From Clostridiales bacterium (lineage in GTDB: Bacteria > Bacillota > Clostridia > Christensenellales > JAISNN01): 60,120 nucleotides of DNA. A program made the position numbers and the translations under genes. Below, piece by piece: positions 6,262 to 53,104 of this stretch. The stretch is from contig JAISNN010000019.1 in assembly GCA_031276195.1 (NCBI GenBank), positions 1 through 60,120 of the forward strand, written 5' to 3'. The stretch's first letter is position 1; each line of letters begins with the position of its first letter. The notes under the pieces were generated by a model. That model made no database searches. It worked only from the letters and a program-made list of their open reading frames with translations, and was not told the origin of the DNA.

Positions 6262-6330
6262 AAATCTAAAAATTGAAAGCGGCGTGATATTATGATATAT
6301 AAAAAGGTTTGATATTTTTCCGTTTTTATG

Positions 6331-6700
6331 TTAGTATAATAATATAACGGCAATTTCGTAAATATTTTAGGACGACGATATAACCGAAATTACGTAAATG
6401 CGTTAGTATAATGATGTAACCGAAATTGCGTAAATGCGTTAGTATAATGATATAATTGAAATTACGTAAATGCGTTAGTATAATTATATAACCGAAATTG
6501 CGTAAATGCGTTAGTATAATGATATAATTGAAATTACGTAAATACGTTAGTATAATGATATAACCGAAATTGCGTAAATGCGTTAGTATAATGATATAAC
6601 CGAAATTACGTAAATACGTTAGTATAATGATATAATTGAAATTGCGTAAATGCGTTAGTGTAATTATATAACCGAAATTGCGAAAAATAGTATAATATGT
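6331..6700 (+). promoter_or_regulatory. Tandem 36-bp promoter-like array upstream of ftsH
   Basis: About ten to eleven units at exactly 36-bp spacing. TTAGTATAAT starts at 6331, 6403, 6439, 6475, 6511, 6547, 6583 and 6619, with variants near 6367, 6655 and 6689. Each unit holds a -10-like TATAAT. In some units the sequence 17 nt upstream is TTGAAA (6456-6461 to 6479-6484; 6528-6533 to 6551-6556), giving near-consensus sigma-A promoters. A third such unit (6636-6641) has TGTAAT as -10. In the others it is CCGAAA. The array therefore reads as alternating strong and weak promoters aimed at ftsH. The reverse-strand open frame through it is only the repeat translated. Confidence 0.7.
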
Positions 6701-22829: not shown

Positions 22830-23636
22830 TTATGCTTGCGGTTGTTTTACGTCGTTGTTTTTGTACTTGCAAAAGGTGTATGTTATTCCTTCGAATTCCT
22901 TTTTTTCGGAGCGGAAAACAAGCGTCCAGCGCGGAGGGATTAAAAAATTGATAAAGGTATCCGCGGCGGAGTCGCCGTCGATTTCGGTAATGAACGCGTA
23001 TTCGCAATAGCGTTCCAGCAATTCGTATACCGCGCCGCCGCCGATGACAAATACGCTTTCCGATTCGTGATTTTCCGGCGGCGATATACCGCCGTTTTCG
23101 GGGGTATTTAAGCATTGTTCAAAATTGTTTTTCATATTATCTAACCGCGGTACTATACCGCCGTTTTCGGGGATATTTAAGCATTGTTCAAAATTGTTTT
23201 TCATATTATCTAACCGCGGTACTATACCGCCGTTTCCGGGGATATTTAAGCATTGTTCAAAATTGTTTTTCATATTGTCTAACCGCGGTACTATACCGTC
23301 GTTTTCTGGGATATTTAAGGGGCGTTCCGAATTGTTTTCCGTATTGTTTAACCGCGGTACTATACCGTCGTTTTTAAGTAATTCAAAGAGTTCCTCCGCC
23401 GAACGGCACACCTCCGCGTTTTCGATTTTCAGGCTCGGATCGCGCGAGAGAACGATATTCCTGCGGTTCGGCAAGGGCTTCCCGTCCTTAAAAGATTTTA
23501 GGGTCGAATGTCCGACGACGACGGTTTTTCCCTCCGTCGTTCCGCGAAAAAACCGCATATCCTCTGGAATGCGGAAAAGAAGTTTATTTTTGTAACCTAT
23601 TCCGTTGTTTTTGTTTTTTGCGGCGATTAAGATCAT
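22830..23636 (-). CDS. folA: Dihydrofolate reductase with 100-residue repeat insertion
   Basis: A 268-residue DHFR (NADPH-dependent reduction of dihydrofolate), about 100 longer than the normal 160-170. N-terminal half: MILIAAKNKNNGIGYKNKLL, substrate Asp26 in FRIPEDMRFF, VVVGHSTLKSF and RNIVLSRD. The C-terminal half resumes at SVFVIGGGAVYELL (193-206) and ends normally. Between them, residues 89-190 are 4.5 copies of a 23-residue repeat (NGGIVPRLDNMKNNFEQCL and four more residues). Each copy encodes a CGGTATAGTACCGCGG palindrome. The insertion lies in the loop before the conserved nucleotide-binding strand, so the fold could survive. GAAGGA lies 7 nt before the ATG. It is downstream of thyA, the functional partner that makes dihydrofolate. 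Confidence 0.93.
   Translation of the reverse strand: MILIAAKNKNNGIGYKNKLLFRIPEDMRFFRGTTEGKTVVVGHSTLKSFKDGKPLPNRRNIVLSRDPSLKIENAEVCRSAEELFELLKNDGIVPRLNNTENNSERPLNIPENDGIVPRLDNMKNNFEQCLNIPGNGGIVPRLDNMKNNFEQCLNIPENGGIVPRLDNMKNNFEQCLNTPENGGISPPENHESESVFVIGGGAVYELLERYCEYAFITEIDGDSAADTFINFLIPPRWTLVFRSEKKEFEGITYTFCKYKNNDVKQPQA
23067..23372. repeat. Palindromic element, four in-frame copies in folA
   Basis: CCGCGGTACTATACCGYCG at 23145-23163, 23214-23232, 23283-23300 and 23352-23370, period exactly 69 bp. A decayed copy is near 23078-23096. Read on the coding strand as Gly-Ile-Val-Pro-Arg-Leu. Confidence 0.92.
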
Positions 23637-39852: not shown

Positions 39853-41448
39853 ATGATGAAAAAAACAAAAAAATTCTTTAGTTTGGCGTTCGTGTGCGTT
39901 CTAATCGCCGCTACGCTTACGTCGTGTCAATGGGTTACCGACTTTTTTGACAAGGACAAAAACAATATCTACGACGTCGAATTCGTCTATCCCGACGGTT
40001 CGGAATACGCCGTTTTAAGGGTCAGGCACAAAGACAAAGTCGTCTTAACGCCCAAAAAAGAGGGCTATACTTTTGAGGAATATTACTATTTCGACGATCC
40101 CGGCCGCGTTTTCGACATCAAAAATACGAAAATCACGGGCAATATAAAAATCATCGTCAAATTTACGGCGAACGAATATACTTTGACCGTCGTTACGTCG
40201 CCTTTCGGGACACCCTCCCTCCAAAGCGGAACGTATAAAACGGACGAGATCGTTTCGCTCGCCGCGGAAGGGGATAATTTTGTCGGCTGGTACAACGGCG
40301 ACATATTTATTTCGCTCGGGAATCCCTCCGACGCGCTCAGAATGCCCCCGTATAATATAACGTTGAAAGCGGTGTACGCGGACGGCGCGAACATAGGGGA
40401 AAGCGTATTCCCCGCTATCGGTTTCGACTCGGGCGAGGGTTCGCAAGAAAATCCTTACGTCGTAACGAACGCGGAGGAACTTTCCTTTTTCGCCTCTTAT
40501 ATAGGACGCGGCGAATCTAACGGCGAATATTTCTCTCTTTTAGCCGATATCGATCTCAAAGGCGCGGATTGGACGCCTATCGGGACGGTTGCCGCGCCCT
40601 TTAAAGGCGTATTCGACGGAAACGGACACAAAATTTCAAATTTCGGATTTTCGGCTTCCGCGGCTTACGCGGACTACGGTCTTTTCGGATACGCGGAGAA
40701 CGCGGAGATCAAAAATCTCGGAGTTTCGGACGTCAGATTTACGGTGAACGGAGCGCAGTCCGGAACGGTGAGCGCGGGCGCGGTCGCCGGCAGAGCGGTT
40801 GGAATTAAAATGTCGAAAGTCTTTTCGGCGGGCGTGATAGACGTTTTGAGCGCGGGCGCGGACTTGTACGCGGGCGGTTTGATCGGAAAAGCGGAGGGTA
40901 CGGACACTCACGCTCTCATAACCGACTCGTATTCCACGGTCAGACTTTACGCGGCGATAGAGAACGCGGCGGAAAACTCGAAACTTTACGCGGGCGGCTT
41001 GATCGGCTATACGGATTTTGACGTATCGAAAGTGTACGCCGCGGGGAACGTCTATGCGGCGGGCGAAAACGGAAACGCCTACGTTTCGGGGTTGATCGGT
41101 CTTTTGAACGGCAGTCTTGAAACCGCGTTCGCGACGGGGGACGTGAGCGTTTCGGGCGGTATGCCGCTGTTCGCGAAAGCGGCTTACATCGCGGTTCCGG
41201 GAGAAAACGCGCCCTCGGACTATCTCGCAAACGGCGTGTGCCGCGTCTACGGACAGAAAATCAAAGAGAGCGAGAGAACGACGATATACGACGGCGGAGC
41301 GAACACGCTTGCCGTTTGGTTCGGAACGCCCGAACTGTATAATAAGATCGTCAAATTGGACGCGGAGGTTTGGGACTTGGACTACTTGACGGGTACGGAC
41401 GGAAAAGCCTTCGAGGAGAGGGGCATACTGCCGAAATTAAGGTTTTAA
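39853..41448 (+). CDS. Cell-surface lipoprotein with InlB-type and GLUG-type repeats
   Basis: 531 residues. A lipoprotein signal peptide ends in the lipobox LTSC (Cys25), so the mature protein is tethered to the outer face of the membrane. Next come two beta-rich segments resembling Listeria-Bacteroides (InlB B) repeats: VEFVYPDGSEYAVLRVRHKD and NEYTLTVVTSPFG..VGWYNGDI. From about residue 200 there is a right-handed-helix-like region with GLUG-type motifs (DYGLFGYAENAEIKNLGV, YAGGLIGKAEG, YAGGLIGYTD, YVSGLIGLLNGS). The architecture is that of adhesins or surface-binding proteins. AAGGAGA precedes the ATG. A second lipoprotein with a similar start begins at 59990. Confidence 0.82.
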   Translation: MMKKTKKFFSLAFVCVLIAATLTSCQWVTDFFDKDKNNIYDVEFVYPDGSEYAVLRVRHKDKVVLTPKKEGYTFEEYYYFDDPGRVFDIKNTKITGNIKIIVKFTANEYTLTVVTSPFGTPSLQSGTYKTDEIVSLAAEGDNFVGWYNGDIFISLGNPSDALRMPPYNITLKAVYADGANIGESVFPAIGFDSGEGSQENPYVVTNAEELSFFASYIGRGESNGEYFSLLADIDLKGADWTPIGTVAAPFKGVFDGNGHKISNFGFSASAAYADYGLFGYAENAEIKNLGVSDVRFTVNGAQSGTVSAGAVAGRAVGIKMSKVFSAGVIDVLSAGADLYAGGLIGKAEGTDTHALITDSYSTVRLYAAIENAAENSKLYAGGLIGYTDFDVSKVYAAGNVYAAGENGNAYVSGLIGLLNGSLETAFATGDVSVSGGMPLFAKAAYIAVPGENAPSDYLANGVCRVYGQKIKESERTTIYDGGANTLAVWFGTPELYNKIVKLDAEVWDLDYLTGTDGKAFEERGILPKLRF

Positions 41449-41714: not shown

Positions 41715-41743
41715 TGTACAAACGGGTTTTTTTATGATATAAT
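41715..41743 (+). promoter_or_regulatory. Extended -10 promoter before gene at 41859
   Basis: TGTACA (41715-41720), 17-nt spacer, TATAAT (41738-41743) with TGA just before it. Confidence 0.65.
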
Positions 41744-41858
41744 AACTAAGGATAAAAGTCTAAGAGGGGATTTTTATGTTCCGCGCGGCTTTTCGCGTTA
41801 GGTTTTTTATCCGAAAATCAAAATTTTGGCTTCAAAAAGCGTTTTTGCAAGGTGAATT

Positions 41859-42740
41859 ATGAACGAAGACGAATTGTTGGCGCGGCAGGTTTTGGCGGAC
41901 GATCCGAAAGCCGGCAAAAAAATGAAAAAAATCAACGGATCGAAGGCGGGCAAGAGGAGAAAATCCGGAGCCGCCGTTCGGTCGTATAACAAAAAGCGGG
42001 CGAGAGCGGAGCAGGTTCGCGGCGCGCAGCCGCAGATGATGCACGTCCCCGCGCAACTTCCGGACGGAGGGCAGGACGCCGACATATACAATATGGTCAA
42101 GGGCGGCGGGAGTGGTCTTAGCGGAAAGAAAACTTATTATTCTCCGATGTCGAGGGTAATTTTGAAGATCATATGTTTCATTTTGATTCCGCTTATCGCG
42201 GTTTTCGCGGCGGCGGAGTTTGCGAAGAGCGGCTACTATCCGACCTACGGAGATTTCAAGATTGAAATGTACCATGCGGACAGCCAAACGGAGAGAGGAA
42301 CGTATTATATAAAGTCAAAGGACACAAAGCGTTTCCCGATCCGCCGCGCCGCCGTAAAGACAAAGGACAAGAACACGGGCAAGGAGATCGAGGAGATCTA
42401 CGAGGGCTATCTTTTGAGCGATCTTGTGAGCGTTTCGGGTTTTGAGGGCAAAGAGGGGCATTTCGACTATTTTAGGCTAGTCAAGGCGGACGGGAGCGCG
42501 TACGGCGAAAACGAAACCGCGCATCTCGACAACTATATGGTCTTTGTGTTCAAAATCGTAACCGTAAAAGGAAAAGAAACGAGAGCGGACGTCAACGGCG
42601 TTTCGATCCAAACGAACAGACAGCCTTCGGCTTATATGCTGACCGACCCGGCTTATATGTCCGCGGAGAAAAGGTATTTCGGCGATAAAGTCTCTCCGCT
42701 AATCATACAATTCGGAATTATCGCGGACGATTACGAATAA
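41859..42740 (+). CDS. Bitopic membrane protein of unknown function
   Basis: 293 residues. A highly basic N-terminal cytoplasmic region (residues 20-55 rich in Lys/Arg), a single TM helix at about 99-120 (ILKIICFILIPLIAVFAAAE), and an extracytoplasmic domain of about 170 residues with beta-strand-like pattern and no recognised family. AAGGTG precedes the ATG at 41859. It is the first gene of a likely group with the two decapeptide-repeat proteins; the spacing (175 bp) leaves co-transcription open. Confidence 0.75.
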   Translation: MNEDELLARQVLADDPKAGKKMKKINGSKAGKRRKSGAAVRSYNKKRARAEQVRGAQPQMMHVPAQLPDGGQDADIYNMVKGGGSGLSGKKTYYSPMSRVILKIICFILIPLIAVFAAAEFAKSGYYPTYGDFKIEMYHADSQTERGTYYIKSKDTKRFPIRRAAVKTKDKNTGKEIEEIYEGYLLSDLVSVSGFEGKEGHFDYFRLVKADGSAYGENETAHLDNYMVFVFKIVTVKGKETRADVNGVSIQTNRQPSAYMLTDPAYMSAEKRYFGDKVSPLIIQFGIIADDYE

Positions 42741-42915
42741 ATAATTTAAATGAAATATCTAAATTAGAGCGGATTTAATCCGAACCGAATATAATGAAAT
42801 TCGGCGCTAAAACGAAACGACCGAAAAATTCAACGCCGGGCAAAATGAAACGAAAACGAAGAAAAAATAAAAACGAAATACAAAAAAATAATAAAGACAG
42901 AGAGGAAATTAGATT

Positions 42916-43767
42916 ATGGCGGACAATAACAATTTTGAAGACGGGTTTTATCGCGCCGCTCCGACTGCGGACGCGAATATAAGTCGCGGCTTTGTCTATG
43001 AAAAGCCCGAGCCGGCGGCATATTCCGCACCCGACCGCGCGCCGCATAAAAATACGCTGCCGAGAAGGGCGTCGCATAAGGACACGGTTCCGAAGCCCGC
43101 CCCCTATAAGGATACGATCCCGAAGCCCGCGCCGTATAAGGAATTGAAACCGCAGGCGGCTCCCTATAAAGAACTTAGACCGCAAGCGGCTCCGTATAAG
43201 GAATTGAGGCCGCCCGTTTCTCCGTATAAAAACACCCTTCCTTCGGTCGCGCCGCATAAAAATTATATGCCCGCGCTTGCGCCCGAAAAGGAATACGACG
43301 CGGCGGAGTCCGTAACGCTGATCGCCGCCTCATCTCATAAAGACGTTATTCCCAAACCCGCGCCGCATAAAGACAGCAAGCCGAAACGCGCGCCGCATAA
43401 AAATTATATGCCCGCGCTTGCCCCTCATAAGGACAATAGGCCGATCGAGGCGGAGCCGAAACCTCTTGATCCGACGGCTTCGAGATATTTAGGGCCGGGC
43501 GTCGCGCCGTACAAAAACACGCTGCCGCCCGTCGCGCCGTATGTAAATTTGACGCCGCCCGTCGAGCCGTATAAAGAGTTAAGACCTCCGCGCGCTCCCC
43601 ATAAAGACGTCGCGCCGAAACCCGCGCCGAAAGCGTATAACTTCTTTGCGGACTACAATCCGAATTTCACGCCCGACGAACCCGTTATGCCGCCCGACCC
43701 GTACGCCGGCGACAAGAGAACGAAAAAAATGCTGAAAAAATTGAAAAAGAAAAACCGTAAAAAATAA
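42916..43767 (+). CDS. Pro/Lys decapeptide-repeat protein 1
   Basis: 283 residues, no signal peptide and no membrane helix. Residues about 35-240 are mostly ten-residue repeats of the form APYKELRPQA / APHKDTKPSV (x-Ala-Pro-His/Tyr-Lys-Asp/Glu-x-x-Pro-x). A different segment, EKEYDAAESVTLIAASSHKD, interrupts them. The C-terminus is YNFFADYNPNFTPDEPVMPP, then a Lys-rich end (MLKKLKKKNRKK). The composition (Pro, Lys, Ala) predicts an extended polyproline-like rod. It is paralogous to the next gene. No homologue family is recognised. A GAGAGAGGA stretch lies before the ATG at 42916. Confidence 0.8.
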   Translation: MADNNNFEDGFYRAAPTADANISRGFVYEKPEPAAYSAPDRAPHKNTLPRRASHKDTVPKPAPYKDTIPKPAPYKELKPQAAPYKELRPQAAPYKELRPPVSPYKNTLPSVAPHKNYMPALAPEKEYDAAESVTLIAASSHKDVIPKPAPHKDSKPKRAPHKNYMPALAPHKDNRPIEAEPKPLDPTASRYLGPGVAPYKNTLPPVAPYVNLTPPVEPYKELRPPRAPHKDVAPKPAPKAYNFFADYNPNFTPDEPVMPPDPYAGDKRTKKMLKKLKKKNRKK

Positions 43768-44061
43768 CGGCGGATAAAAAGCCGCTTAAACGTGATTACC
43801 GCATACAAAAAACGGATAAAAAGCCGCTAAACGTGATTACCGCATACAAAAAAACGGATAAAAAGCCGCTAAACGTAATTACCGCATACAAAAAAACGGA
43901 TAAACGCCCGTTAAATTTCGGCAAACGAATAAAAAACGGACAAAAAGTCATTTAACATATATAAACGGCTATAAACGGCATACCGGAGAAATAAAAAGAC
44001 AACCGAAAAAAAATAATAAATTAGGCGAAATTAATTTGTGTCGAAAAGGAAGGGTATAATA
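43768..44061. repeat. 42-bp tandem repeat between the two repeat-protein genes
   Basis: GGATAAAAAGCCGCT units at 43772, 43814 and 43856, with a decayed one at 43898; period 42 bp. No hairpin terminator is evident. Confidence 0.75.
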
Positions 44062-45069
44062 ATGGATGCTTTTAAAAAAGACGGAAAAAACATCGGCAAA
44101 TACGTAACTTCGTTGCGTTCGGTCGCGCCGCACAAGGACACCAAGCCTTCGGTCGCGCCGTATAAAGATACAAAACCCGCGGTCGAGCCCTATAAGGACA
44201 CCAAGCCTTCGGTCGAACCGCATAAGGACAATAAGCCTTCGGTCGCGCCGCACAAAAACACCCAACCCTCTGTCGCGCCCCATAAGGATACCAAACCCGT
44301 CCGCGTCCCCCATAAGGACGTCAAGCCTTCGCGCGCGCCCTTTAAAGACACCAAGCCTCCGCGCGCTCCGCGCAAAAAATATGACCCGACGGAAAACGTT
44401 TCTATGGGCATAGAAACCGCGCCGCATAAGGACGTAAGTCCTAAGCCCGCGCCCTATAAAGACACAAAACCGAAACGCGAACCTTTTTTTGACATAAGAC
44501 CGAAGCGCGCGCCGCATAAAGACTTAAAGCCCAAACGCGCGCCGCATAAGGACAACAGACCGAAACTCGCGCCCGAAAAGGAATACGACGCGGCGGAGTC
44601 CGTGATGCTGATCGCTTCCGCGCCGCATAAGGACGTGATCCCTCAGCCCGCGCCCTACAAAGACACAAAGCCCAAACGCGTTCCGCATAAGGACAAAAAA
44701 CCAAGACGCGACCCGGATAAGGAACATTCCGCGACGGATACGATTACGATCATCACGTCCGCGCCGCCGAAAGACGTAAAACCTAAACGCGCGCCGCACA
44801 AAAACAGACTTCCGTCCGTCGCGCCCTATAAAGACACCAAACCGCCGCGCGCGCCCCACAAGGACAACAAACCGAAACGCGCGCCGCATAAGGACAATAA
44901 GCCGCAAAGGGATCCCGACGCGTATAATATGTTCGCGGACTACGATCCGAATTTCGTTCCGGACGAACCCGTTATGCCGAGCGATCCCTACGCGAACGAC
45001 AAGAGAGCCAAAAAATTGCAAAAAAAGTTGAAAAAACTTGAAAAGAAACAAAAAAAACGGAAAAAATAA
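44062..45069 (+). CDS. Pro/Lys decapeptide-repeat protein 2
   Basis: 335 residues, soluble. About 25 ten-residue repeats (APHKDTKPSV, APYKDTKPAV, RAPHKDNKPK) run from residue 20 to 290. They are divided into blocks by KKYDPTENVSMGIETAPHKD, EKEYDAAESVMLIASAPHKD and DKEHSATDTITIITSAPPKD. The C-terminus YNMFADYDPNFVPDEPVMPS and the Lys-rich end match the paralogue at 42916. AGGAAGGG precedes the ATG at 44062; an in-frame GTG at 44038 lies before that site. Basic, proline-rich and non-membrane, so perhaps a scaffold or a nucleic-acid- or envelope-associated rod. Function unknown. Confidence 0.82.
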   Translation: MDAFKKDGKNIGKYVTSLRSVAPHKDTKPSVAPYKDTKPAVEPYKDTKPSVEPHKDNKPSVAPHKNTQPSVAPHKDTKPVRVPHKDVKPSRAPFKDTKPPRAPRKKYDPTENVSMGIETAPHKDVSPKPAPYKDTKPKREPFFDIRPKRAPHKDLKPKRAPHKDNRPKLAPEKEYDAAESVMLIASAPHKDVIPQPAPYKDTKPKRVPHKDKKPRRDPDKEHSATDTITIITSAPPKDVKPKRAPHKNRLPSVAPYKDTKPPRAPHKDNKPKRAPHKDNKPQRDPDAYNMFADYDPNFVPDEPVMPSDPYANDKRAKKLQKKLKKLEKKQKKRKK

Positions 45070-45495
45070 AATAGAAAACGCCGTTTTCGGTTGAACTTTT
45101 TAAGAATTCAAGCCGGCGCGGAAAAGCCTGAAAAACGAAAAAGGTAAAACGCCGCTTTCGGTTGAACTTTTTAAGAATTCAAACCGGCGCGGAAAAGCCT
45201 GAAAAACGAAAAAGGTAAAACGCCGCTTTCGGTTGAACTTTTTAAGAATTCGAACCGACGCGGAAAAGCCTGAAAAATGAAAAAGGTAAAACGCCGCTTT
45301 CGGTTGAACTTTTTAAGAATTCGAACCGACGCGGAAAAGCCGGAAAACGAAAAAGGTAAGACGCCGTTTTCGGTTGAACTTTTTAAGAATTCAAATCGGC
45401 GCGGAAAAGCCGGAAAACGAAAAAGGCAAAGTATCGCTTTTGTCCGGCGCGCTCTCCTTATTCGTCCGATTCAAAAAAACGGAAAAATAAAAATA
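45070..45495. repeat. 71-bp tandem repeat, five copies
   Basis: GGTTGAACTTTTTAAGAATT at 45089, 45160, 45231, 45302 and 45372 (period 71, last 70). The period is not a multiple of three, so the open frame through it is not a repeat protein. Confidence 0.9.
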
Positions 45496-46008
45496 ATGAA
45501 ATATATGCCGGATAAAAAACAACCTCGATATGCCATGACTCCCGGTATCGGCGTCGCTTTAAGTTACGCCGTTACGGTAGTTGTGTGCGTTGCGGGGTTG
45601 ATTTTTTATTACGACAAATCTTCGGGAACGTTTTCGTTCTCGCCGAATTCCGACGCGAAAACGATTTTGATTTTATTCGCCGCGTTTTTCGCGCTTACGG
45701 GCGCGGTTTTTCTTCCGAAATGGCTGGCGCGCTATACGTTCGACGAACGGGGAGTCAAGGAGTCCGCCGCCGGGATCGCGAAAAAATTCGTCGCATGGGA
45801 GAACGTCAAGGAAGTACGCTATTCCGTGTACGGAACGAAACCGCTCCTTTTTATATCCGAATACCCCTTGGACGGGCTTAGTTATTCCGAAATCAAAAAA
45901 ATTAAAGCGCAAATCACCGTCATATGCTCGATGAAAACGCTGGAAGCGGTTAGGGCGTTCTATAAAGAAAAGATAGTCAATTATCCCGAAAATTCCGTGG
46001 TGGTTTAA
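45496..46008 (+). CDS. Small membrane protein with PH-like C-terminal domain
   Basis: 170 residues. Two membrane helices (about 18-42 and 57-80), then a cytoplasmic domain of about 85 residues (ARYTFDERGVKESAAGIAKK, FVAWENVKEVRYSVYG) with the strand pattern of small bacterial PH or YcxB-like domains; this assignment is tentative. The frame is open back to 45277, but that part lies in a 71-bp tandem repeat whose period breaks the frame, so the ATG at 45496 is chosen. Its ribosome site is weak. A terminator hairpin follows 40 bp after the stop. Confidence 0.65.
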   Translation: MKYMPDKKQPRYAMTPGIGVALSYAVTVVVCVAGLIFYYDKSSGTFSFSPNSDAKTILILFAAFFALTGAVFLPKWLARYTFDERGVKESAAGIAKKFVAWENVKEVRYSVYGTKPLLFISEYPLDGLSYSEIKKIKAQITVICSMKTLEAVRAFYKEKIVNYPENSVVV

Positions 46009-46534: not shown

Positions 46535-48565
46535 CTAATTTATTTTTTCAAAGATCCGCAAAACGATGACGGAGAGGTCGTCGCGCACGCCGTTTTCGAC
46601 CGCTTTACTCATTATCAAATCCGCCAAGAGTTGCGGATTTTTTGTTTTCGAGGCGGCGACGAGGTTTTTGAGTCCGTCGCCGTCGAACGCTTCTCCCACG
46701 CCGTCGCTGACCATAACGACGAGATCGTCCGGCAAAAGCGTTTTTTCGCTTGCGACGGGTGTTGCCGCATCGGAAGTCCCGAGGGGAAGGGCGCGGCTTT
46801 CGATTATTTCGGCTTGACCTTTACGTCTTATATATCCGTCGTGCGAACCCATTTTAATGAAATTCGCCGCGCCGTTTTTCAGGTCGATAACGCACATATC
46901 CAGCGTCGCGAATCCCCCGTCGTTTACGCCGCAGAGGAGGCGGTTCACGAGGTATAGAAGCGCGTCGTCCGTGAAGCCCGCGCGGTAAAAATTTTCGATC
47001 AGACCGATTGCGTTTTCGCTCAGTCTGCCCGCTTTTTCGCCGTGTCCCATACCGTCGGACAGCGCGGCGATAAACTTATCGCCCCCGACTTTCATCGCGC
47101 TTTTCGCGTCGCCGTTGACGCGTTCGCGCGCGAGAGAAGCCTCGCCGTATATAACGTCGAAACGGTTCGCGGCTTTCAGCCCGACCGCCGCCGCGCCCTT
47201 ATACGGAATATCGGCGTATGCCGCGGTGAGTTTTTGTCCGACCGCTCCCCCGACCGTCTTTATCAGGGCGGGATTGCACGCGTCGAGTTCGTTTACGACG
47301 ACGAAAACGTCTATGTTTTCTCCCTCTCCGCATATCGCCGCGCCGAGGCACGGAATGCCGGCGGCGTCGAGCGATTCGGAAATACTCCGTTCAAAATCCC
47401 TTTCGAACGAAACGCCGGAGCGTTCGAGCGAGAGTTTTTTGAATATCTCCGCGACGCCTCCGAACTGCGCCGCCATAAGGATTTTCTTTTCGTCGCCGTC
47501 CTCCGCCATACGCAAAATGAGCGACGTTATATCGGCGAAAGCGCGGTATAGACCCTCCGTTTTGAGCGATGCGGCAAGGCGGCAGCCGTTGACCATAGAG
47601 CGTTCGGGCGCGTCCTTTTTGCCGTCCCCGAACATAACGGACGAAAGGGATAAAGCCGCTTTTTTGGGAATGGCGGCGGCGGAAGCGGAGCCTATCAGCA
47701 CGGCGCAATTTTCAATAATATTCAGTTCGGAAAAGCCGTTCATAACCCCCGCCTGAATGAAAAACGCGAAAAAGACAGCGAAAGCCGAGAGATAGACCGA
47801 CACGGGGCGGACGAACGCGCCCGCCGCCGCCATAACGACGAGACAGGCGAGGGGAAACATATCCGCATCGAAAAAAGCCGCGCCTATACCCGCGGCGGCG
47901 GCGGCGTAAAAGGCGGTATGCGCGCCGCGGGACACCCCTCCGGTATGCAAAAAAAAGCAGATCAAAAAGGCGGCGGCGGCATAAAAAACGCCCTTAGATC
48001 CGAGAAATTCAAAGGCGTAAAGACCGAGGAAAAACACGGAAAAAAGAAGGTACAGAGCCGCCCTTTCGTCTGCGGAAAATCCCCCTTCGTACCGCTTTAC
48101 GCGGCGGACGGAAAGGGCGCGCGAAAGCACGCAAAAAGCGTATGTAAAAAAGGCGGCGAGGAGGACGGTCAGGGCGGCTTTTACGAGCGCGCCGCCGTCG
48201 CCGTGAGAAAAAAACAGGACGGGCAGACGGCAGAGAGCGGCGGCGAAGCAGATCGAAAAAACGGGGGGCTTTCTTTTTATTTTATAGCATACGTAATACA
48301 GCGGAATGAATACCGCCGCCGGCAGAGCCGCGGAGAAAAGGTTTGCGAACGACGCGCCGCCGACCGCCGCCGCCGCGAAATAGACGGGCGCTAAGACGAC
48401 GAGGTTTTCACCCGAAAAGACGAGCGAGGAAAAGAACGCGATCGACGCGGGTTCATAGTCCAGCCCCGATTTCGCGCGTGAAAGTACGGCGAAAAAAATA
48501 AAAAAAATCGGGTATTTTATCAGTTTTTTTAGGAATCCGTTTTTTTTTGCGTTCGGTTTTTTCAT
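46535..48565 (-). CDS. spoIIE: Stage II sporulation protein E (PP2C-type phosphatase)
   Basis: 676 residues. The N-terminal half has about ten membrane helices (residues 15-320). A linker domain follows (about 325-470), then a C-terminal PP2C/SpoIIE phosphatase (about 470-676) with the metal-binding LSDGMGHGEKAGRLSENAI and VMVSDGVGEAFDGDGL motifs and the final RDDLSVIVLRI. SpoIIE dephosphorylates SpoIIAA and so releases sigma-F in the forespore; it also acts at the polar septum. The protein is shorter than B. subtilis SpoIIE (827), mainly in the middle. AAAGGT lies 8 nt before the ATG. With yyaC it supports sporulation in this organism. Confidence 0.93.
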   Translation of the reverse strand: MKKPNAKKNGFLKKLIKYPIFFIFFAVLSRAKSGLDYEPASIAFFSSLVFSGENLVVLAPVYFAAAAVGGASFANLFSAALPAAVFIPLYYVCYKIKRKPPVFSICFAAALCRLPVLFFSHGDGGALVKAALTVLLAAFFTYAFCVLSRALSVRRVKRYEGGFSADERAALYLLFSVFFLGLYAFEFLGSKGVFYAAAAFLICFFLHTGGVSRGAHTAFYAAAAAGIGAAFFDADMFPLACLVVMAAAGAFVRPVSVYLSAFAVFFAFFIQAGVMNGFSELNIIENCAVLIGSASAAAIPKKAALSLSSVMFGDGKKDAPERSMVNGCRLAASLKTEGLYRAFADITSLILRMAEDGDEKKILMAAQFGGVAEIFKKLSLERSGVSFERDFERSISESLDAAGIPCLGAAICGEGENIDVFVVVNELDACNPALIKTVGGAVGQKLTAAYADIPYKGAAAVGLKAANRFDVIYGEASLARERVNGDAKSAMKVGGDKFIAALSDGMGHGEKAGRLSENAIGLIENFYRAGFTDDALLYLVNRLLCGVNDGGFATLDMCVIDLKNGAANFIKMGSHDGYIRRKGQAEIIESRALPLGTSDAATPVASEKTLLPDDLVVMVSDGVGEAFDGDGLKNLVAASKTKNPQLLADLIMSKAVENGVRDDLSVIVLRIFEKIN

Positions 48566-50087: not shown

Positions 50088-50129
50088 AGGAATAGTTTTA
50101 TCAATTTAAAAACAATATAAAGAACGCAA

Positions 50130-50600
50130 AAACACGGCAAAGATAATTAAAAACGGGATAAAAATAGGGCAAAAACAAGGTAAAAACACGCTAAAAATAG
50201 GGCAAAAACAAGGCGAAAACAGGGCGAAAACACGCTAAAATACGCTAAAAACACGGCAAAAACGGGATAAAAACAAGGCAAAAATAGGGCGAAAACACGC
50301 TAAAAACGGGGTAAAAATAGGGCAAAAACGGGATAAAAATAGGGCAAAAACAAGGCAAAAACAAGGCAAAAACGGGATAAAAATAGGGCAAAAATAGGGC
50401 AAAAACGGGATAAAAACAAGGCAAGAATAGGGCGAAAACAAGGTGAAAACACGCTAAAATACGCTAAAAACACGGCAAAAACACGCTAAAAATAGGGTAA
50501 AAATAGGGTGAAAATAGGGCGAAAACAAAGTAAAAACAAGGCAAAAACATGGTAAAAACAAGGCAAAAACGTGGTAAAAATAGGGCAAAAATAAAATAAA
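50130..50600. repeat. 11-bp phased A-tract array
   Basis: About 40 units such as AAAAATAGGGC, AAAAACAAGGC, AAAAACGGGAT and AAAAACACGCT. Starts fall every 11 bp (for example 50160, 50171, 50182, 50193). A-tracts repeated at the helical pitch should produce strongly curved DNA. The long minus-strand open frame across it is only the repeat translated. Confidence 0.8.
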
Positions 50601-50639
50601 AAAACATCAAAATACGATAAAAACAGAATGCGAAATGCA

Positions 50640-50865
50640 AAAGAACACAAGAAAAATAGGCAAAAATAGAGTATAAAAACGTAAAAAAAAACGGTAAGAA
50701 CCATAGGAAATAAAGCATAAAAACGTAAAAAAAACGGTGAAAACCATAGGAAATAAAGCATAAAAACGTAAAAAAAACGGTAAAAACCGTAGGAAATAAA
50801 ATATATAAAAACGTAAAAAAAACGGTAAAAACCGTAGGAAATAAAATATATAAAAACGGAGAACG
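50640..50865. repeat. 43-bp tandem repeat before MetRS-like gene
   Basis: AGGAAATAAA units at 50705, 50748, 50791 and 50836, each with AAAACGGTRAAAACC. They run up to the start of the gene at 50870, whose Shine-Dalgarno (CGGAGAACGGA) is weak. Confidence 0.8.
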
Positions 50866-50869
50866 GAAT

Positions 50870-53104
50870 ATGGCGCACTACAAAAGACCCGAATTTCCCA
50901 AAAGGATTGTCATTACGGCGGGAATGCCGAACGGAAACAAGCCCTTGCATATCGGCCATGTCGGCGCGATTTTTCTCTGGGCGGACGCTTACGCGCGCTA
51001 TATGCGCGACAATATCGGGAACGAAAACGTCATTTTTGTGTCGGGAACGGACGGCTTCGGCTCGGTCGCGGAGGAAAAATACAGAAAACTCCGCGAGGCG
51101 GGAGAATATGACGGCACGATCGCCGATTACGTCGGCGGATATCACGAAATTCAAAAAAACACCTTGAAAAAATACGGCGTTTCTTTGAATCTTTTCGCCG
51201 CGTCGTGCTTCGGAAAATCCTACGAACATCACAAAAAAATGTCCGATTATTTCTTTGAAACTATGTTGAAAAACGGTTATATGGAGAAAAAAACGGGCGA
51301 ACAATTCTATGATAAAGACGCCGATATGATCCTGAACGGCAGGCAGGTAGAGGGAAAATGCCCCATCGACGGTTGCAAATCGGAGGTCGGCTATGCGGAC
51401 GAATGCTCTCTCGGGCATCAATATTCGCCGTCGGAACTTATCGATCCGGTCAGTACGCTTACGGGGAAAAAACCCGAAATGATCGCCGTCAATAACTACT
51501 ATTTGAGGTTGGAAGCCTTCCGCGAAGAGATCAGGGCTTGGTGCGACAAGTTGGAAAAAACGGGCTCGGCGCGGAAATTTATGATTCGCGATATGCGCGA
51601 CTTTTTGCAGCCGCCTATGCTTTTCATCTCCGAATCGGCAAAGGACGAAATCGACAAAATCACGGGGAAATTGCCGACGCATTCCTATTTTCACGACGAA
51701 AAAAACAAGCGCGTACAGTTGAAATTCGCGTCCGTCGAGGAGCGCGACAAGGCGTGCGGCGTTTTGAAGGAATCGGGGATAAGATACCGCTCGAATAAAA
51801 CTCTCGCGCCTTTCAGAATCTCGGGGAACGCCAAATGGGGAATCCCTCTGCCCGCCGTCCCCGACGGCTCGACGGACGGACTGACCTTTTATGTCTGGCC
51901 CGAATCGCTTTGGGCTCCGATTTCGTTCACGGATACCTACCTTTCGGGGGAGGGAGAGCGGACGGGAGAGGGTTCCGGCTGGCGCGATTGGTGGTGCGAA
52001 AAGGACGCTAAGGTCGTGCAGTTCATAGGCGAGGACAACGTGTTTTTTTACTGTCTCGCGCAGACGGGGCTTTTTCTCGCGATGCAGGGCAAGGATTACG
52101 GCATAGAAGCCGCGGACGGCAAACTCAATCTTACCTACGTCGCCGCGAATAAGCACCTCTTGACGAATAACGCGAAGGCAAGCAGCAGCGGAGTTTATAA
52201 AGCCCCGACCGCGGACAGCCTCTTGGAACACTATACCGTCGAACAGTTGAGAATGCACTTTTTGGGGCAGGGGATCAGTACGGCGACGGCGAATTTCCGC
52301 TCGAAGGTCTTTTCGCCCGAAGAATGCCAAAAGGGGGGCGACCCCGTTTTGTTGCAGGGGAATATATTGACGAATATTTTTAACCGAATCGTGCGTTCGG
52401 TTTTCTATTCATTGCAACAGTATTTCGGAGGGAAACTGCCGTCGTCGGAGTATGCCGAAAAGGGCGTGAAAGAGGGCTTGGAAGCGAGGTATAGTACCGC
52501 GTTAAATGGCGGGGGAAAAGAGGATAAAGGGAATGCGGAATGCGCGGCGGAAAAGCCAGGAAATAGTACAGGAAACGGTTGTAAAGAGAGTGCGGAAGCG
52601 CGGTATAGCGCCGCGTTAAATGGCGGGGAATGCGCGGTTAGAAACAATACGGAAAACGGTTGTAAAGAGGGGGCGGAAGCGCGGTACAGTACCGCGTTGA
52701 AACCGTCTGAGGACGCGATAGACAGGGCGGCGGCGGCGTTGGAAAAATACGAGGAGTTTTTTGCGAAATATGAATTTAATAACGCGGTCGGAGTGATCGA
52801 CGAATATTTCCGTTCGGCAAATCAATATTGGGCGGAAAAGTCGAAAACCGACGATTTGTCCGCGCGCGCGCGGCTGATCGCGGACACGGTTCACGTCGTC
52901 AAGACGGGCGTTTTGATGCTGCACGCGCTCGCGCCGGACGGCGCGGAACTCGTCGCGGAATATATGAACGCGGGGAATAGGCTTTTTGATTGGAACAACG
53001 CCTTGAAAACCTTTGACGAGGTTTGCCCGGACGTCGAAGGATTTAGATTTATAGAGCCGCGGTTCGACTTCTTTAAAAAACACGAAAGTCAACTCGGAAC
53101 GTGA
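50870..53104 (+). CDS. Methionyl-tRNA synthetase-like class I ligase with repeat insertion and altered KMSKS
   Basis: 744 residues. Class I catalytic domain with the HIGH motif in NKPLHIGHVGA (27-30) and a MetRS-type zinc knuckle CPIDGC..ADECSLGHQYSPSEL (164-190). The KMSKS loop is NNAKASSSGVYKA (436-440 KASSS), so the second lysine is missing. The alpha-helical anticodon-binding region begins after about 490. Residues about 531-613 are an insertion of three repeats starting EARYSTALNGG. Each encodes a CGCGGTATAGTACCGCG-type palindrome (52485-52501, 52599-52615, 52680-52696; spacings 114 and 81 nt). The C-terminal tRNA-binding domain of some MetRS is absent. Either the cell's MetRS or a class I tRNA ligase paralogue of changed function. 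Confidence 0.85.
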   Translation: MAHYKRPEFPKRIVITAGMPNGNKPLHIGHVGAIFLWADAYARYMRDNIGNENVIFVSGTDGFGSVAEEKYRKLREAGEYDGTIADYVGGYHEIQKNTLKKYGVSLNLFAASCFGKSYEHHKKMSDYFFETMLKNGYMEKKTGEQFYDKDADMILNGRQVEGKCPIDGCKSEVGYADECSLGHQYSPSELIDPVSTLTGKKPEMIAVNNYYLRLEAFREEIRAWCDKLEKTGSARKFMIRDMRDFLQPPMLFISESAKDEIDKITGKLPTHSYFHDEKNKRVQLKFASVEERDKACGVLKESGIRYRSNKTLAPFRISGNAKWGIPLPAVPDGSTDGLTFYVWPESLWAPISFTDTYLSGEGERTGEGSGWRDWWCEKDAKVVQFIGEDNVFFYCLAQTGLFLAMQGKDYGIEAADGKLNLTYVAANKHLLTNNAKASSSGVYKAPTADSLLEHYTVEQLRMHFLGQGISTATANFRSKVFSPEECQKGGDPVLLQGNILTNIFNRIVRSVFYSLQQYFGGKLPSSEYAEKGVKEGLEARYSTALNGGGKEDKGNAECAAEKPGNSTGNGCKESAEARYSAALNGGECAVRNNTENGCKEGAEARYSTALKPSEDAIDRAAAALEKYEEFFAKYEFNNAVGVIDEYFRSANQYWAEKSKTDDLSARARLIADTVHVVKTGVLMLHALAPDGAELVAEYMNAGNRLFDWNNALKTFDEVCPDVEGFRFIEPRFDFFKKHESQLGT
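52460..52708 (+). repeat. Palindromic element, three in-frame copies in MetRS-like gene
   Basis: Copies at 52485-52501, 52599-52615 and 52680-52696, read as Ala-Arg-Tyr-Ser-Thr/Ala-Ala-Leu. The intervals of 114 and 81 nt are both multiples of three. Confidence 0.9.

Follow-up and report, generated by a model that had tools for sequence, protein, structure and literature searches.

To our knowledge, disordered repeat scaffolds are known from few bacterial systems. Among the closest described, CsoS2 of the alpha-carboxysome and EPYC1 of the pyrenoid are presented as disordered chains whose repeated short linear motifs bind one partner many times over (PMC10614612), and the APR (acidic proline-rich) proteins P65, HMW1, HMW3, P30 and P200 of the Mycoplasma pneumoniae attachment organelle as internal or membrane proteins with proline-rich disordered regions (PMC11940719). 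Here, we describe two adjacent genes, A and B, that encode paralogous proteins built of a Pro/Lys decapeptide repeat in a 60,120-nucleotide stretch of DNA from a Clostridiales bacterium (GTDB lineage Bacteria; Bacillota; Clostridia; Christensenellales; JAISNN01; GenBank assembly GCA_031276195.1, contig JAISNN010000019.1, positions 1 to 60,120 of the forward strand), hereafter the window, to which all coordinates refer. In six genomes of the genus, the gene of a rapidly changing and apparently unstructured repeat protein is flanked by the same pair of genes for membrane proteins. This arrangement suggests a flexible sub-membrane scaffold of a kind not yet catalogued.

Gene A (42916-43767, + strand) encodes 283 amino acids and follows a likely ribosome-binding site, GAGAGG (42900-42905, +). 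Gene B, its tandem paralogue, adjoins it (44062-45069, +) and encodes 335 amino acids; its start is most likely the ATG at 44062, with AAAGGAAGG directly upstream, and not the GTG at 44038 of the open reading frame (ORF) list. The family comprises seven proteins, namely A and B of the window's genome (G000) and one homologue apiece from the five other genomes of the genus (G001 to G005), so that the second gene copy is found solely in the window's genome (1 of 6). Since each of these five genomes carries a homologue, A and B are real genes.

The two proteins are 51% identical in alignment and share one architecture, consisting of Pro/Lys decapeptides, a second module of the form KEYDAAESV...HKD and, at the end, a common C-terminal module with a polybasic tail. 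In both, self-identity has its maxima at lags of 10, 20 and 30 residues, reaching 0.33 (A) and 0.40 (B) at lag 10, against maxima of 0.18 and 0.17 in 1000 residue shuffles over lags 2-30. Protein A has 7 matches and protein B 12 to the strict motif AP[HY]K[DE]..P (shuffle mean, 0.002-0.003; maximum, 1 in 2000 shuffles), a relaxed motif is matched 14 and 19 times, and cutting by regular expression yields 16 units in A (14 canonical) and 19 in B (18 canonical). A preliminary description of this region had named two paralogous decapeptide-repeat ORFs here, which the lag-10 identity above all shuffles bears out; the repeat itself stands, but its figure of 20 to 25 copies is somewhat high, the count being about 14-16 units in A and 18-19 in B. 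The EYDAAESV module does interrupt the repeats as described, as a single copy in A (residues 125-143, KEYDAAESVTLIAASSHKD; 43288-43344, +) and in B at residues 173-191 (KEYDAAESVMLIASAPHKD; 44578-44634, +), with two diverged copies at residues 105-124 (44374-44433, +) and 220-238 (44719-44775, +). Likewise present in both proteins are the shared C-terminal module (43636-43707, + in A; 44923-44994, + in B) and the Lys-rich end (43708-43764, + in A; 44995-45066, + in B), and all seven family proteins end in a Lys/Arg-rich tail. At the other end, protein A carries the motif FVYEKPEPAAYSAP (42991-43032, +), which follows the pattern YxKPxPAxYxAP seen by eye in five of the seven proteins, is degenerate in that of G003 and is absent from protein B.

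Neither A nor B contains a single Cys or Trp, and both are strongly basic (net charge, +20 and +41; range across the family, +8 in G005 to +41). No transmembrane (TM)-like segment is found in either (best 19-residue Kyte-Doolittle mean, 0.34 in A and 0.43 in B), nor a signal peptide as judged by eye and hydropathy. AlphaFold2 predicts no fold for the repeat protein, with the exception of a helix at residues 267-282 in the polybasic tail of A (mean pLDDT, 57; pTM, 0.14). Such a low-confidence prediction fits a disordered chain, of which a flexible and a polyproline-II form would be indistinguishable, and it is the source of the disorder in the combination of disordered chain and repeated short motifs observed here. 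The earlier picture of basic proteins without secretion signals, with which the missing TM segment and predicted fold agree, is upheld, but that of extended rods is not established.

The repeat unit drifts among the genomes: it reads PSVAPYKDTK and PKRAPHKDNK in the window, PSVAPYTERR in G001, PAVSPYTERR in G005 and PQVAAPKYGG in G002. Nevertheless, in six of the seven proteins no other lag scores as high as 10, and its value exceeds that of every shuffle. Cutting six proteins by regular expression (that of G004 was not cut) gave 91 units, of which the 81 canonical ones were kept. Of these 81, 78 contain one or more aromatics (Tyr, His, Phe) and 69 exactly one; with the ten irregular units restored and counted by eye, the figures are 87 and 76 of 91. 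Position 6 is His in 27 and Tyr in 33 of the 81 canonical units, the Tyr of the G002 unit standing at position 8 instead, and the mean net charge per unit ranges from +0.46 to +1.89. Units with exactly one aromatic number 12 of 14 in protein A, against a mean of 5.5 and a maximum of 12 upon shuffling among units, and 11 of 16 in G002, against a mean of 6.5 and a maximum of 14; because the shuffled maximum reaches the observed value in A and exceeds it in G002, the aromatic regularity is suggestive, not proven.

In the four proteins examined, identical decapeptides that recur never share the same DNA, differing at 1-7 of their 30 bases, so that the 4 copies of PAVSPYTERR are encoded by 4 DNA versions and the 5 copies of PQVAAPKYGG by 5. 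The encoding of identical peptides by different codons indicates that the repeats are under selection. Over all pairs of units, a set that takes in a small number of irregular units and of fragments from the C-terminal module, the proportion of synonymous differences (pS) is 0.59-0.70, against 0.28-0.43 for nonsynonymous differences (pN), in six proteins, and all 21 pairs of the 24-residue C-terminal module have a higher pS than pN. This synonymous divergence with the peptide kept marks the repeats as old duplications maintained at the peptide level. They are in this respect unlike the two intergenic arrays beside gene B, which are matched at 94-96%: a noncoding 42-bp tandem repeat between A and B, separate from the peptide repeats (43771-43904, +; Tandem Repeats Finder, 96% matches), and a 71-bp array (45075-45430; 94% matches).

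The repeat genes are part of a conserved three-gene cluster. In all six genomes, a gene for a bitopic membrane protein, the repeat gene (two in the window) and a gene for a small PH-like membrane protein follow each other in this order on one strand. The preliminary description had proposed a partnership with the bitopic protein at 41859, a proposal strengthened by this adjacency in six of six genomes and by the third conserved gene in the same unit; it had missed that third partner, as well as the conserved promoter and the spore genes of the genus treated below. The bitopic protein (41859-42740, +) has a basic N-terminal tail of low confidence, probably disordered, in which the residues MMHxP.Q...GQD...Y...KG are invariant in the six-genome alignment, followed by one TM helix and a predicted domain at about residues 131-288. 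Its AlphaFold2 model has a mean pLDDT of 66 and a pTM of 0.51, with residues 131-290 at pLDDT 64-88 per ten-residue block. In VIA-align, this C-terminal domain aligns with SoxCD (Z 9.7; rmsd, 3.5; 128 residues aligned) and PruR (Z 8.4; rmsd, 3.2; 117 aligned), and the first 21 rows consist solely of SUOX-family or PruR chains, at Z 9.7-6.0 over 117-134 aligned residues, the next row having Z 5.4. The ectodomain is accordingly predicted to have a sulfite-oxidase/PruR-like fold; Pfam gives nothing above its cut-off for the protein. Its sole invariant Cys in the alignment, C106, sits in the TM helix, and because the domain itself has no conserved Cys it would not be a molybdenum enzyme of the SUOX type. 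PruR is likewise described as lacking the Mo-ligating Cys; its pterin is bound by Trp and Tyr residues (PMC13259868).

The third gene (45496-46008, +) encodes 170 amino acids, with a hydrophobic N-terminal part and then a PH-like domain, both recognised by eye. The window protein matches NF041635 (STM3941 family) at E 1.5e-6 and 28.2 bits, under the curated cut-off of 40. A PH-like profile matches 23 of 297 genomes of the order at E <= 0.01, of which six are those of the genus, four others lie below 1e-10 and the rest are weaker and partly chance. At these four loci outside the genus (L061 to L064), no adjoining repeat or bitopic gene was seen among ORFs of at least 90 amino acids read by eye, L063 showing 438 bases upstream. 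Pfam matches of the six PH-like proteins to TauE (E 2e-4) and PrgI (E 0.0018), in one or two members, are taken as matches to TM composition.

The cluster is headed by a sigma-A-like extended -10 promoter, TGTACA-17-TATAAT (41715-41743, +), a consensus match and not a mapped start, with TG before the -10 hexamer. The same element, with a poly-T spacer of 17, is found in all five genomes that reach it, the contig of the sixth ending 57 bases upstream; the -35-like hexamer is TGTACA in four and TATACA in G004. Conservation extends over 41715-41760 in these five genomes, as TGTACAA (TATACAA in G004), the poly-T spacer, TGnTATAATA and then CTAA, a stretch longer than the hexamers themselves that may point to a regulator or a leader element.

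Searches for relatives yielded the genus and little else. The distribution searches are samples, for which genomes were drawn evenly from the larger groups. Within the order, a profile of the C-terminal module alone, the search that the preliminary description had recommended, matches 7 of 392 genomes, namely the six of the genus and one by chance (G063), and only the window's own among 398 of the phylum; the G063 match (E 2.2e-4) lies antisense to a peptidase-like gene and was ruled out. With protein B as query, 6 of 386 genomes of the order match, all of the genus. The bitopic profile matches 9 of 396, again the six and three weak ones (E 9e-4 to 8e-3), of which L025 shows no related gene on reading and L024 and L026 were judged chance from their short partial matches. 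Searched against one genome per species for 84,980 species, the same profile returns 5 loci, those of G001 to G005; the taxonomic family is represented by the same six genomes as the genus. The five records are metagenome-assembled genomes named "Clostridiales bacterium," whose isolate names begin with Iy174 (one), Kf353 (two) or Po218 (two). Kf353 is a sample from the lower termite Kalotermes flavicollis, according to PMC11707648; to judge by their naming, Iy174 and Po218 may also be termite samples, and no isolate names were found in PMC13067680. In these samples, the repeat proteins are seen in a few uncultured gut bacteria, of which at least some come from termites.

Family libraries were searched at curated cut-offs (Pfam, NCBIfam) or by E-value (PHROGs). 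None of the seven repeat proteins matches Pfam above cut-off, the best being Extensin_1 (PF02095, E 0.004) and DUF7675 (E 0.16), in one protein each, and A and B match nothing in NCBIfam or PHROGs. One pattern matched 30 stretches of viral contigs with no relative among them, and protein B as query found no relative in a phage collection and no match among solved structures. Its one plasmid match, to Streptomyces, covers 30% of the query at 26% identity (E 2e-3) and is taken as composition, and Rfam has no match in the window at gathering threshold. The earlier statement that nothing similar is known agrees with all of these searches. No bacterial decapeptide or Pro/Lys repeat family was found in the literature, insofar as its text was accessible, which together with the libraries suggests that the repeat family is undescribed.

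We tentatively read A and B, at a little under even confidence, as an intrinsically disordered, multivalent cytoplasmic scaffold or linker, which the neighbouring gene products would anchor at the membrane within a three-component assembly. Most decapeptides, with one aromatic (Tyr, His or Phe) and a net charge near +1 at fixed spacing, would each be one site in an array of weak binding sites, between which the prolines would keep the chain stretched out. Specific docking would probably fall to the conserved C-terminal module, and the polybasic tail could attach electrostatically to the inner face of the membrane or to nucleic acid. The bitopic protein, through a cytoplasmic tail with its invariant short motif, would keep the chain under the membrane, its outside domain resembling sulfite-oxidase/PruR-type pterin-binding domains, and the PH-like membrane protein would bind the chain as its second membrane holder. 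The three genes would be cotranscribed and expressed in growth from the sigma-A-type promoter. The preliminary description had offered a scaffold, nucleoid, cytoskeleton or membrane linker role, and a choice among these is not established.

Several observations weigh against this interpretation. A shared gene neighbourhood in six related genomes is linkage and not binding, and the operon structure is deduced from order, strand and spacing. The fold of the bitopic domain comes from VIA-align, whose own note states that best Z values of 7-8 are typical where there is no clear match; Foldseek by itself finds no significant match for this protein (best E, 0.34), and its model has a mean pLDDT of just 66. 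In addition, the G004 protein (186 residues) has few units and a period that does not reach significance, so that a long array is not essential, and the regularity of the aromatics partly owes to the common descent of the units.

If the proteins do form a membrane-tethered scaffold, the six-genome series, in which the unit drifts but the period, the positive charge and, in most units, a single aromatic persist, may show what such a scaffold needs. The cluster would also tie a disordered protein of no known family to a receptor-like membrane protein whose outside fold can be recognised, and through this link the function of the repeat protein becomes testable. A bolder and distinctly unlikely extension is a new transmembrane sensing platform of one gut Clostridia genus, in which an outside PruR/SUOX-like domain, perhaps pterin-binding, would be joined through one helix and a cytoplasmic motif to a membrane condensate of the repeat protein, with the PH-like protein as third component.

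The best rival to a sub-membrane scaffold is a role in the spore coat or spore morphogenesis, with A and B as cytoplasmic proteins of the mother cell that would gather on the forespore, perhaps cross-linked via Tyr and Lys; we regard it as unlikely, yet live, because the genus carries spore genes. It owes its rank to SpoIVA, for which each of the six genomes has a match over the curated cut-off (B. subtilis being the one positive control), and to SpoIIIAA-like matches, also in all six, which are under the cut-off in a search that also matches 8 of 14 control genomes. Many coat proteins are fast-evolving, lineage-restricted and of low complexity, and the composition rich in Pro, Lys and Tyr/His and the restriction of the family to the genus would agree with this. 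A gene for a SpoIIE-like PP2C phosphatase (46535-48565, - strand) is the convergent neighbour of the cluster in four of the five genomes whose contig extends there; TIGR02865 matches in all six genomes under its curated cut-off, G002 having only a weak match elsewhere. Spo0A-box-like heptamers occur in 2 of 13 upstream regions, against 0.3 expected, at unrelated positions.

The promoters speak against a coat protein. The cluster is headed by the sigma-A-like element in five of five genomes, whereas a sigma-E-like site precedes spoIVA in all five genomes fetched, by a pattern defined after reading those spoIVA upstream sequences, and the cluster genes share no site of this kind, single high scores falling to the regions before gene A of the window's genome (p 0.06) and to G005 (p 0.02). 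Consensus scans, which may miss a divergent site, find sigma-K-like and sigma-G/F-like sites in 0 of 13 upstream regions of bitopic and repeat genes; the promoter patterns other than the spoIVA-derived one are general consensus sequences. Moreover, the partner proteins look membrane-bound, and alpha/beta-type small acid-soluble spore proteins (SASP; PF00269) are found in 0 of 6 genomes with B. subtilis as positive control, which places ordinary spores themselves in doubt. A genus with SpoIVA in which SASP is not found may have unusual spores or an endospore programme put to other use. Were A and B coat proteins instead, this genus, with SpoIVA and no detectable SASP, would have a coat family of its own that is new.

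An improbable alternative is that the basic Pro/Lys-rich chain binds the nucleoid or RNA, for which bacterial histone-H1-like and KPAA-repeat proteins serve as models. The net charge of the family and its Lys/Arg-rich tails agree with such a role, but each protein has 19-44 acidic residues, many units couple Lys/Arg with Asp/Glu, the net charge falls to +8 in G005, and the linkage to two membrane-protein genes is conserved. We consider it quite improbable that the proteins form an exported wall or adhesive polymer in the manner of extensin or mussel foot protein, released nonclassically and cross-linked through Tyr and Lys. A decapeptide with Pro, Lys and Tyr, neighbours that encode envelope proteins and the weak Extensin_1 match of one of the seven proteins would suit it, but low-complexity profile matches come cheap, none of the seven proteins has a TM-like segment or, by eye, a signal peptide, and His often replaces Tyr at position 6. 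Finally, a neutral minisatellite expansion within coding DNA, with repeats of no specific function, would suit a 60-kb window with 69 tandem-repeat rows (overlaps included) and arrays on both flanks of gene B, but it is highly improbable given the 94-96% matches of those arrays against a pS of about 0.6 with the peptide kept, and the homologues in all five other genomes.

Elsewhere in the window, minisatellites are very many in the Tandem Repeats Finder output, for example at 6330-6686, 23085-23374, 45075-45430 and 50126-50591. The last includes an array of 11/22-bp AAAAACAGGGC repeats (50149-50591), into which a long antisense ORF (50486-52330) runs opposite a gene that by eye is methionyl-tRNA-synthetase-like (50870-53104). 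The cluster is preceded at 39853-41448 by a gene for a protein with GLUG and Listeria-Bacteroides/InlB-like repeats (Flg_new under cut-off), and in G002 by a gene for a similar GLUG/InlB-like repeat protein, identified by eye (L016, 7360-8865). G004 encodes, some 3 kb upstream of its bitopic gene, a collagen-like GPTGAT repeat protein that is BclA-like by look (L017, 2512-4632, - strand).

Set beside known systems, the repeat proteins find likenesses of several kinds. Coat proteins of the CotG/CotC type are low-complexity and, like A and B, repetitive, rich in Lys, Tyr and His and lineage-restricted, and the genus carries spore genes; the sigma-A-like promoter and the membrane-protein partners set the present proteins apart, and no common sigma-E/K-like site was found. 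Extended Pro/Lys-rich short repeats are also shared with the decapeptide of mussel foot protein, which is secreted, and the PEVK segments of titin; these are animal proteins, and we claim no homology. The bitopic partner resembles PruR and the SUOX fold in the predicted fold of residues 131-288 or so, in a domain presumably outside the membrane and in having no conserved Cys there; it differs from PruR in its membrane anchor and disordered N-terminal tail, and no DcpA-type gene was noticed beside it. For the APR proteins the likeness is one of description, the DPN(Q)AY motif recalling the DPNF...DPYA of the C-terminal module here, and no homology is claimed. The APR regions are acidic, whereas the repeat proteins here are basic (+8 to +41), and P65 also has predicted coiled coils (PMC11940719). 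With CsoS2 and EPYC1, to which we liken A and B by mode of action and with no claim of homology, they share a disordered chain of repeated short motifs, placed here in a membrane setting in contrast to Rubisco there, and built of ten-residue Pro/Lys repeats.

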